From Dioscorea cayenensis subsp. rotundata (Eukaryota > Streptophyta > Magnoliopsida > Dioscoreales > Dioscoreaceae): 64,000 nucleotides of DNA. The translations under genes were made by a program, and so were the position numbers. The DNA is taken from the NCBI RefSeq assembly GCF_009730915.1, contig NC_052487.1, forward strand, positions 3,683,928-3,747,927, read 5' to 3'. This document shows positions 19,601-37,367 of this stretch, piece after piece. Each line of letters begins with the position of its first letter. Positions within the stretch are counted from its first letter, which is position 1. The notes under the pieces were generated by a model that worked only from the letters and a program-made list of their open reading frames with translations, ran no database searches and was not told the DNA's origin.

Positions 19601-21307
19601 ATGGCCTCGGGATCCCCGAAATCTCGGGTCGATCAGGTATTCTTCTCGATCTCTTCCATTCTCCTTATCTAAGCTCAGATCTCTTGTCACCATTGCGGCT
19701 TCTTCAATCTCGCAGTTCTTCGGATCAAGAAAGAGGAGACCTCAGTCTCTCAAAGAGGAGAAGCCCCATGAAAATCTTAAGACCACGCCGGAGTCGTCCC
19801 CCAGCGGTAAGGGCTCCCTTGATTCCTATCTCGTCAGATCCCCTGACTCTCAGCGCCGGCTTGATTTGGTGAAGAGGAATATCTCTTTGGAGATTGGTCT
19901 GCCGTCTGAGACTGCGCAAAAGCCCGTTCTCCGTTCGTGCTCTTCTGAGAGAACCGATGGCCGCGTTGGCGAACACGGAGAGCAGATTCTTGAGAAGGAT
20001 GTTTCAGTATGCGAGTCAATAGCAGGCGGGACTTCGGAGCTCAAGAAGTTCGCCACTGATTTCCTCTCTTTGTATTGCAGGTAGCCTTTTGTTCTATTCA
20101 AAAGATTGAAATTTTGTTTTCTTGTTTATTTTTGAGTGAAGAGAAAACTGAAATGCATATGCAAATTACAAACTTTATTTATGAAATTTATTTTCTTTCG
20201 ACAGTGAGGTTTTGCCTGTGGAACAAGAGCAGAAGGGGCAAAAAAGAAATGGTAGTCCATCTCTTCTGGTTGTTTGTGACCAAACCAATGTGAAGAAGCA
20301 GTGTGCTCTGAAAATAGAGGATGATGCTCCTGTTCGTGATGGTTCTGAATGTTCAGAGTCAAAGACGAGTGTGAAAACCCAAAAAATGATTGATTTTAGT
20401 GCCAGTAAACCCACAGTAAGCATGAGGAGATGCAGTGGCACACCAAAAGCTGGCTTGCATGCACCTGGTATGTTGAACACGCCTAGATCAGTAAGCAGGA
20501 AGTCCTTAATATCCCTGGGGATGAGTTCTGGAATGAAGCCTTTGATGTTGCTGATGGTTTTTACCATCCCGTGGATGAAGCTTCTTGTGCAAGGGGAGAA
20601 AGGGAGAATGTCTGTCCTATGGATTTGTCATCATGTATAGCTCCCAGTGGTGGTGGAATAATTTTGAGGTCTGAAAAATGGTGTACTGGAAACCCAAGGG
20701 GGTGAGGGTGAAAAATGTGGTATGCTCCTCAATGGAAGTGACAAGTCACAAGCTGGTGTTCACAGGGGCAAGGTGTCCCCTTTGCCAGTGAAGCATTTTG
20801 ACTTTTCTCATGATGAAAATATCATCAAGGAGAAAAAGTTCACCTTGGAGAGATCTGAAACTCTTGATGCTCTAACCAGTGGAGCAGTAGATACCAGCTG
20901 TATAAATCAAAATGATGTTTCTACCTCAAGTTCTAAAAGAAATCCTGAAACAGGTATTGTGGGCAATGCCTTTGATAAGGCTAAACGGGACTCCAGGAAA
21001 GTGCATGAGATTTTGAAAGGTGCATTTGACGCAATTGAAGAAGTCAATTTGTTGGTTCAAGAGAATGATGCTAAGTCTAAGGGCAAGGGTCTTAATGCAC
21101 ATGTTGGTGAATCTTATGTTGTTCGTGGTTCATTTAGTGTAGAGGAAAGAAAGATCAGATCAATCGCATGCAAAAACTAATGACGCTACTGCCACTCCAT
21201 CAAGTTCTATGCCTTTAAAAAACCATTTGCAGCTAACAAGTTGGCTTCCTTCTGAAATTTGCAGCATATATATGAAGAAAGGAATATCAAGTCTTTATCC
21301 TTGGCAG
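19601..21307 (+). CDS. TEB: TEB exons 1-3: N-terminal region
   Basis: Exon 1 (19601-19636) encodes [12 protein letters not shown]; exon 2 (19716-20080) opens [10 protein letters not shown]; exon 3 starts at 20205 and ends at 21307 with SLYPWQ just before the helicase. The exon 1-2 junction creates V-D-Q-F-F, a degenerate PCNA-interacting (PIP-like) motif, and a second S-L-D-S-Y-L follows about 35 residues later. Exon 3 carries typical TEB words ([48 protein letters not shown]), but they lie in different frames. Shifts are needed near 20515, 20690 and 21150. The region is charged, Ser-rich and predicted to be largely disordered. Confidence 0.8.
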
Positions 21308-36300: not shown

Positions 36301-37367
36301 TAACCCAAGAGACATGCATTTTGATTTAAACCATCAGACTGATTTAGTAATTTTATGAAAATAATATTATTTAAATGAAAATTTACAAGGAATAGTATCT
36401 CACAGTGATACTGCTGCACTGGCTCTGACAGCACAGTTCTAGAATCTCTTTTTTCAGTTTACCTTAGATTCATGATGTGTTTTTGGGGGACCATTCTTTT
36501 GTTTATCTAAGTACGCATCTAACAAGTCTCTTGTCGATAACATATTTTAGTTTAACTCATTATGTTTCTTTCAATGTTCAACTGGTTACTGGTGTTTTTT
36601 AGCTTAGGATGTCGCAAAAACAGGATATGCACATGTACCATCTGTGTCCCTTGTATTGGCTCCTGACTGTAATTTTTTTAAGTGGCTTTCTGCAGCTTTT
36701 AGTACATGAGTCTTATGCTGTTGTTAGAATTACCTGGATGTTCATAAGAAAATCGTCTCTTCTGTGGTGCATAAACCCGTTATAGCCATCCAGCAATATA
36801 CTTCTTTTTTTTTTTAATTTCAAATTCTTTTAATCAATAATCTTCAGTTGGTTCTTAGTTATAGATTTTATTGCGCTTTTCCTTGTGTGATGCACCATGA
36901 TTTCCACTGCAGCATTAACCTATTCATTGATCAACATAGGCTGTTTAAATGTACTCTTATGGTTATTGATTCTTATCCTCCTGCATTGCTTGAGAACACT
37001 TATGGTCATCAAATCTGTTATACTGGCGTGCATCATAATTCATGACTTTGTAAAATCAGAAATTTGATTGATATTCAGCAGCTAACATTTTGTTACTTAA
37101 ACTTCATAGGTTCATGATGAGCTAGTGTTGGAAGTTGATCCAAAATTTATAAAGGAGGCAGGAAATTTGCTACAGATGAGCATGGAAAATGCTGCGTCTC
37201 TTCTAGGTAAATTATGGAATCCACTTCTTGCATTTTGATCATTTGTGAGATTTATTTTTCTTTTTATTTTTTAATTGACATCCTTTCGTGTTCCAGTTCC
37301 ATTGCGTGTAAAGTTGAAGTTCGGAAAAACATGGGGTTCACTGCAGCCGTTTGTGCCTGAAACTTAA
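19601..37367 (+). CDS. TEB: DNA polymerase theta (TEBICHI-type helicase-polymerase), frame-damaged
   Basis: This gene matches plant polymerase theta end to end: an N-terminal region, an SF2 helicase, an HHH-like region, a long linker and a C-terminal family A polymerase. In other organisms this nuclear enzyme performs microhomology-mediated end joining of DNA breaks and, in Arabidopsis, supports replication-stress tolerance and T-DNA integration. About 24 exons can be traced by homology and splice signals from the ATG at 19601 to the TAA at 37367. Helicase exons 4-15 join in frame throughout. The long exon 3, the linker exon and most polymerase exons contain 1-2-base indels that shift frame, often partly compensated nearby. 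Either the copy is a young pseudogene or this stretch was poorly polished. Introns are long and repeat-bearing. Family identity is very secure; coding integrity is not. Confidence 0.9.
22339..28322 (+). CDS. TEB: TEB exons 4-15: SF2 helicase and HHH-like region
   Basis: Exons are 22339-22403, 23019-23124, 23206-23406, 24577-24774, 25401-25562, 25669-25905, 26486-26701, 26779-27129, 27217-27369, 27573-27794, 27908-28126 and 28208-28322; all phases agree. Visible motifs are Walker [13 protein letters not shown] (split over the first two exons), motif [11 protein letters not shown], motif [20 protein letters not shown], motif [22 protein letters not shown], and motif [16 protein letters not shown]. 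Motif VI, normally Q-M-x-G-R-A-G-R, reads [11 protein letters not shown]: both arginines are missing and one residue is added. The C-terminal part includes [17 protein letters not shown], a helix-hairpin-helix-like segment. The helicase unwinds DNA ends and strips RPA in characterised homologues. Confidence 0.92.
28677..29989 (+). CDS. TEB: TEB exon 16: linker with 16-residue repeats and exonuclease-like start
   Basis: The exon opens with [16 protein letters not shown] in phase with exon 15. It then breaks near 28720, where small insertions move the continuing TEB match ([18 protein letters not shown]) to another frame. A three-unit 48-bp repeat lies at 29001-29144. Further shifts occur near 29220-29370. 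From 29360 to 29989 a long open frame carries the TEB-specific block [40 protein letters not shown] and [18 protein letters not shown], the degenerate exonuclease-like region preceding the polymerase. Confidence 0.8.
29001..29144 (+). repeat. 48-bp in-frame tandem repeat in TEB linker
   Basis: Three units start at 29001, 29049 and 29097. They translate to [32 protein letters not shown] and [16 protein letters not shown]. The period is a multiple of three, so repeat number can vary without changing frame. Confidence 0.9.
30155..32091 (+). CDS. TEB: TEB polymerase exons, first half (exo-like/thumb)
   Basis: Traceable exons are about 30155-30356, 30499-30767 and 31902-32091. The first encodes [19 protein letters not shown] and [14 protein letters not shown], then shifts frame near 30255 and again near 30318. 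The second contains [23 protein letters not shown] and [12 protein letters not shown] words spread over frames, with shifts near 30520 and 30710. The third is open: [20 protein letters not shown] followed by [18 protein letters not shown], the family A motif that contacts template-primer (T-x-T-G-R-L-S). Confidence 0.8.
32174..37367 (+). CDS. TEB: TEB polymerase exons, second half (palm/fingers)
   Basis: Exons are about 32174-32287, 32364-32722, 35632-35743, 35821-35966, 37110-37206 and 37297-37367. Motif A reads [16 protein letters not shown] (catalytic Asp present), but an extra base precedes it near 32385 and several indels follow at 32425-32525. Motif B reads [20 protein letters not shown]: the conserved Lys-Arg of the fingers helix is displaced by paired indels. 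Another extra base lies near 32693. The 35632 exon is open but altered at G-R-K-T-V-F-S. The 35821 exon has [19 protein letters not shown] and shifts before GNCRIILQ. Motif [12 protein letters not shown] is intact. The end is [18 protein letters not shown]. Confidence 0.82.
32871..33900. repeat. Dispersed non-coding repeat in a TEB intron
   Basis: The 2.9-kb intron between 32723 and 35631 starts with a block opening gtaagtgtatgggtcgccaagtag and ending a phrase with gtatcgttcccacaag. From memory, similar phrases recur in many plant genomes as part of non-coding retrotransposon-like repeats. No coding capacity or clear termini were found here, so the family is unassigned and the right border is approximate. 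Confidence 0.4.
34679..35160. mobile_element. Mutator-like MITE in a TEB intron
   Basis: The ends form imperfect terminal inverted repeats of about 80 bases. The left end starts GGGAAATGTATAAAAACC and contains CAACTTTTTGCAAAAAATAA and ATGATGTGTGGTTT. The right end, read on the other strand, starts GGGAAAAGTAAATATAAAAA and contains GACTTTTGCAAAATAAAG and ATGACGTGTGGTTTT. Flanking T-rich 8-9 bases could be the target duplication. GGGAAA-type termini, long inverted repeats and roughly 9-bp duplications are typical of Mutator-like elements. It is 482 bp and non-coding. Confidence 0.7.

Follow-up and report, generated by a model that had tools for sequence, protein, structure and literature searches.

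The gene for DNA polymerase theta (TEB) is broken by many small indels in the stretch of DNA analysed here, and this damage most probably belongs to the assembly. The window (the whole stretch of 64,000 nucleotides, C17:3683928-3747927 in a 584-Mb assembly of 2249 contigs) contains a contig, at positions 9617-49307, which we hold with a probability of roughly 95% to be a false duplication, its broken TEB being an assembly artefact, the product of ordinary error and no evidence of gene loss. The first-pass annotation had offered two explanations for the damage. A locally unpolished long-read consensus is now strongly supported by a second draft, also noisy, of this 39.7-kb stretch. The other, a young pseudogene, is not supported, nor is the loss of polymerase theta that had been envisaged, as the second draft does not decode with the window's lesions and indels between the drafts exceed substitutions more than twofold. 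Positions of the features are collected in Table 1.

Table 1. Features of the window, with positions in window numbering.
Feature	Position	Strand	Remarks
Assembly gap, 1000 N	8617-9616		left end of the probably redundant contig
Contig, very probably redundant	9617-49307	.	end-to-end inverted match to 73646-113247 (C17:3757573-3797174)
Decayed LINE-like element	9741-13104	+	control for real decay; weak PF03372 match
TEB (DNA polymerase theta) gene	19601-37367	+	25 exons, ATG to TAA; helicase versus PDB POLQ chains, polymerase PF00476
TEB exon 3	20205-21307	+	3 net frame changes; 6 indels between drafts
TEB exon 10, helicase motif VI	26486-26701	+	second-draft version shorter by 3 bases
TEB exons 16-23 (linker and polymerase domain)	28677-35966	+	14 of 17 net frame changes
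TEB frame changes, decoder penalty 6	20493, 20678, 21147, 28732, 28868, 28944, 29228, 29376, 29971, 30280, 30537, 30698, 31906, 32263, 32499, 32677, 35940	+	frame decoder
BURP-domain main ORF	39983-40873	-	open in the window; PF03181, E 1.3e-74
OVATE-family gene	45433-46238	-	PF04844; frame-broken in both drafts, at different places
Assembly gap, 1000 N	49308-50307		right end of the probably redundant contig
Control genes peroxidase, PRAI, DDX11	52759-60903	+, -, +	outside the duplicated block, on the second draft's contig

The TEB gene and its frame changes

One gene of the window joins a superfamily-2 helicase, a POLQ helical domain and a family-A polymerase. Read-through pieces of its helicase part had POLQ chains as their best PDB matches (E 1.8e-169), and those of its polymerase part matched polymerase theta in PDB (E 6.4e-58) and PF00476 in Pfam (E 3.7e-91); PF00270, PF00271, PF20470 and PF21099 were also matched by Pfam on such pieces. 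Helicase, HTH_61, POLQ_helical and family-A polymerase follow one another in the order usual for TEB/POLQ. The breaks described below are seen in assembly drafts only, and no biological difference from TEB/POLQ was seen. Exons were placed by eye from three-frame prints with GT-AG borders, giving a spliced length of 6,618 bases; plant TEB exons were recognised by their likeness to the sequence of the family. The canonical splice borders are no independent test of the model, because GT and AG were used to choose them.

In exon 16, a 48-base tandem repeat (29000-29122, 2.6 units) encodes a repeated 16-residue peptide. It sits in the linker between helicase and polymerase, and the second draft carries the same repeat. 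A further family-A polymerase gene, probably of the organellar type, was found at C19:2258590-2261336 by a profile search of the plant's own genome (L004, L006, L007); one match to it spans in-frame stops, which may be an intron.

Reading the 25 spliced exons with a frame decoder, at equal penalties of 6 or 8, yielded 17 frame changes and no nonsense codon, which bears out the many small frame-breaking indels described in TEB exons at first pass. The number of frame changes was 18 at penalty 5 and 20 at penalty 4. Another decoder run gave 18 at penalties 6 and 8-10, with the normal terminal stop counted as an event. Decoder positions are approximate. The event at 30280 was replaced by two, at 30265 and 30309, when the penalty was set to 5, and, since the two drafts do not differ in exons 19 and 20, the events placed at 31906 and 32263 must fall in exons next to these. 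Of the places or ranges that had been listed as break sites, all but 32385 have an event no more than about 40 bases away. When codon scores were switched off, the window's TEB needed 14 changes, split arbitrarily into 10 frame changes and 4 stops; nonsense counting in this mode is regarded as uninformative.

Eleven of the 12 helicase exons had been described as clean. This stands for the net frame; in exon 10, motif VI is altered without net frame change in the window draft, being one residue longer than in the aligned POLQ chain and lacking both arginines of GRAGR. Motif VI reads QMAGRAGRTG in the second draft, where the polymerase O-helix is normal as well.

Two other origins of the breaks were considered and rejected. 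Missed small introns do not account for the frame changes: an intron-placing decoder skipped several exons and still needed 7. A helicase-only gene whose polymerase domain is decaying does not fit either, as there is also damage in exon 3, which precedes the helicase, and in motif VI, which is part of it.

A second draft of the same block

The window consists of three separate contigs, split by two runs of exactly 1000 N; the long open frames at about 8.5-9.9 kb and 49.2-50.4 kb correspond to these gaps. TEB, the BURP and OVATE genes and the LINE-like remnant were all identified on the middle contig; from TEB, BURP, OVATE and others, we judge the window's gene content to be that of a plant. 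All of its 39,691 bases (39,691/39,691) align, inverted and with 97.26% identity, to the same chromosome record, where the second draft lies inside the next contig (50308-118354 in window numbering). The assembly therefore contains the whole of 9617-49307 a second time, and the contig has no flank of its own. The duplicated pair is found on one scaffold and is separated by assembly gaps, the middle contig having a 1000-N gap on either side; the two drafts are about 24 kb apart on one chromosome record.

A Pfam search of the plant's own genome detected another TEB on the minus strand, with polymerase exons 23-27 kb to the right of the window end. Two genomic places were likewise found with a 601-base TEB probe, the second of them 99% identical, 63 kb off and inverted. 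This search, which had been advised as one for a second intact TEB copy, is what decides between the two explanations: the second place turned out to be a further noisy draft.

Just to the right of the second gap, 50358-52315 matches 119369-121357 (window numbering), inverted and with 82% identity, and the latter segment also lies just to the right of the next gap. This repeat at contig ends may bear on the contig breaks. An open frame at 63085-63477 may be akin to plant mobile-domain transposon proteins.

Indels and substitutions between the two drafts

The drafts differ by 262 insertions and 298 deletions (560 indels), versus 237 substitutions. One-base indels number 418 and two-base indels 97, which together make up 515 of the 560. 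No indel in the 39.7 kb exceeds 13 bases, and 286 of the 418 one-base indels adjoin the same base. In TEB exons, 69 indels were counted, none of them (0/69) a multiple of three, together with 12 substitutions, and the TEB introns other than 32723-35631 contain 71 indels versus 5 substitutions. An excess of 1-2-base indels, which is expected of an uncorrected long-read consensus, is present in exons as well as in introns.

Intron 32723-35631 is far more divergent than the rest of the block, and its indel excess is small (158 of all 560 indels versus 112 of all 237 substitutions). Low read support for one of the drafts might explain this divergence. Outside this intron, 125 substitutions in about 36.8 kb amount to 3.4 per kb.

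For control lines of an Arabidopsis mutation-accumulation study, PMC8145854 gives rates of 5.28e-9 for substitutions and 6.65e-9 in all. From these rates, indels are expected to make up about one fifth of the events, that is, about one indel per four substitutions. Compared with this expectation, the observed proportion of indels (560/797) has a binomial P of 1.7e-199, or 4.9e-165 without intron 32723-35631. The ratio of indels to substitutions between the drafts is the reverse of that of natural mutation.

In the assemblies of PMC9516828, false duplications arose mainly from the haplotype type, and a variant of our reading would make the redundant contig the other haplotype (heterotype), some of the differences being allelic and only the indel noise being error. 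The 125 substitutions outside intron 32723-35631 and the strong divergence of the intron itself agree with such a variant, and 3.4 substitutions per kb leave room for some allelic differences. Two haplotypes, however, often differ by larger insertions. The size limit of 13 bases for indels between the drafts favours the same or a very close haplotype, and the 12 substitutions are few for 6.6 kb of exon. We regard the variant as possible, if somewhat doubtful.

A real 40-kb inverted segmental duplication, with the TEB copies, BURP and OVATE decaying independently, would also place two inverted copies this close together on one chromosome record. Yet the contig ends coincide with the ends of the match, with gaps at both and no flanking sequence of the contig's own, and independent natural decay would be expected to yield fewer indels than substitutions, whereas the reverse holds in the TEB exons. 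This explanation is very unlikely. We give next to no credence to a real, recent 40-kb inverted duplication of TEB, BURP and OVATE whose two TEB copies were each struck separately by some process unusually rich in indels, so that the plant would lack sufficient polymerase theta.

Lesions of the two drafts

Decoded by itself, the second draft's TEB shows 6 frame changes plus 1 stop, and the idea that it is the intact copy was abandoned on account of these breaks. With the second draft itself broken, the picture became one of two noisy drafts instead of a single bad contig. Decoder positions differ between them, the nearest pair (29926 in the second draft and 29971 in the window) being 45 bases apart. 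One polymerase exon scored 37.8 bits in the window; its second-draft counterpart, which has an open frame, scored 129.4 bits.

When the decoder was free to choose between the drafts at the 76 exon sites where they differ, TEB had no frame change and no stop from the ATG to the last codon, in a test that was forced to end in frame. Without this constraint, the counts were 18 changes in the window, 5 changes with 1 stop in the second draft, and none of either when the draft could be chosen. The frame was opened by random draft choices in 0 of 200 trials (mean 19.4 changes), and by random contents at the differing sites in 0 of 100. Shared one-base lesions that had been planted were detected in 137 of 200 cases, and in 71 of 78 when they lay more than 60 bases from a differing site. 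Many lesions common to both drafts are excluded; a single real one near a differing site is compatible with the test.

Neighbouring genes and controls

All three genes tested in the block (TEB, BURP and OVATE) were broken in at least one draft. The BURP main ORF, both copies of which lie within the alignment of the drafts, decoded without any frame change in the window, whereas its twin needed 6. For OVATE, 1 net frame change was found in the window (2 at penalty 5), and 2 together with 2 stops in the second draft.

Peroxidase, PRAI and DDX11 gave 0, 0 and 1 decoder events in 278, 242 and 854 codons, respectively. The sole DDX11 event, at 56872, is read as a decoder artefact, because it falls within a stretch that is open in another single frame (56732-56932). 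A 1,257-base DDX11 probe had one full-length match and one 53-base match in the genome, and the nearest relatives of the peroxidase probe were 84% identical.

The first-pass annotation had set the damage in TEB against undamaged peroxidase, isomerase (PRAI), BURP and DDX11 genes. In the window the frames of these genes are indeed free of events, apart from the one in DDX11; the OVATE gene of the same contig, which had not been named, is frame-broken. Moreover, peroxidase, PRAI and DDX11 lie beyond the right-hand 1000-N gap, on another contig than TEB. Intact neighbours are no proof against consensus error, since such error may go with duplicated blocks, and of the four neighbours taken as controls only BURP shares the contig of TEB.

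The LINE-like element served as an example of real decay. Its PF03372 endonuclease match (E 0.00028) is below Pfam's cut-off, its reverse-transcriptase-like frames were recognised by eye only, and a Pfam search of 11699-12379 gave no match. At penalty 6 the decoder, forced end-to-end on this element, counted 8 changes of frame and as many nonsense codons; the corresponding counts were 10 and 7 when the penalty was 5, and 8 and 5 when it was 8. Frame changes and nonsense codons were thus 17:0 in TEB versus 8:8 in the LINE-like element, a significant difference by Fisher's test (P 0.0009).

These counts bear on a young unprocessed pseudogene of TEB, which would account for the 17 net frame changes, the retention of introns and the altered motif VI. 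An unprocessed pseudogene would gather nonsense codons and substitutions as well as frameshifts, yet with codon scores on no nonsense codon was counted here, in contrast to the LINE-like element. The lesions of such a pseudogene are also reproducible in independent sequence, whereas decoding of the second draft revealed other changes. The reversed ratio of indels to substitutions argues against it too, as does the damage to BURP and OVATE, unrelated genes of the same block, which are hit in one draft and in both drafts, respectively. We consider a pseudogene exceedingly improbable.

Discussion

Under the false duplication that we favour, a single 39.7-kb locus would have left the assembler with two noisy drafts, one of them retained as a contig by itself, and the scaffolder would have set this redundant contig, inverted and with fixed-size gaps, beside the contig holding the other draft. 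Both drafts would keep small-indel noise of the long-read kind. Short reads would presumably map equally to the two drafts, so that polishers would leave both alone and the noise would survive. Such a failure of short-read polishing is suggested by the finding that both drafts are noisy while the adjacent control genes, in unique sequence, are clean or nearly so.

The case resembles the homotype and heterotype false duplications (terms of the Vertebrate Genomes Project) described in PMC9516828, where gaps are found between pairs on one scaffold and read-length duplicates carry sequence errors. Here too, the pair is on one scaffold with gaps between its members, its length is within the raw-read range of 1-50 kb, and there are sequence errors in the duplicate. 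It differs in that both members carry errors and neither alone gives an open gene model. In a Eucalyptus assembly (PMC6939829), gene completeness scores were recovered by repolishing once redundant contigs had been removed. A further likeness is with the gene-fragmenting indel errors of long-read drafts treated in PMC12007338, in which small indels break frames and mimic pseudogenes; those concern small genomes, whereas the present damage goes with a duplicated block of a plant genome.

The tempting claim that this plant has lost polymerase theta is thereby removed. The window's contig and its twin in the same assembly hold no evidence for such a loss, and no loss of POLQ in plants was among the papers listed (8 of 48) in a literature search. 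The results say nothing about whether microhomology end joining has been lost. If this assembly were annotated in the routine way, two broken TEB genes might well be reported. The real TEB gene of the plant is most likely intact.
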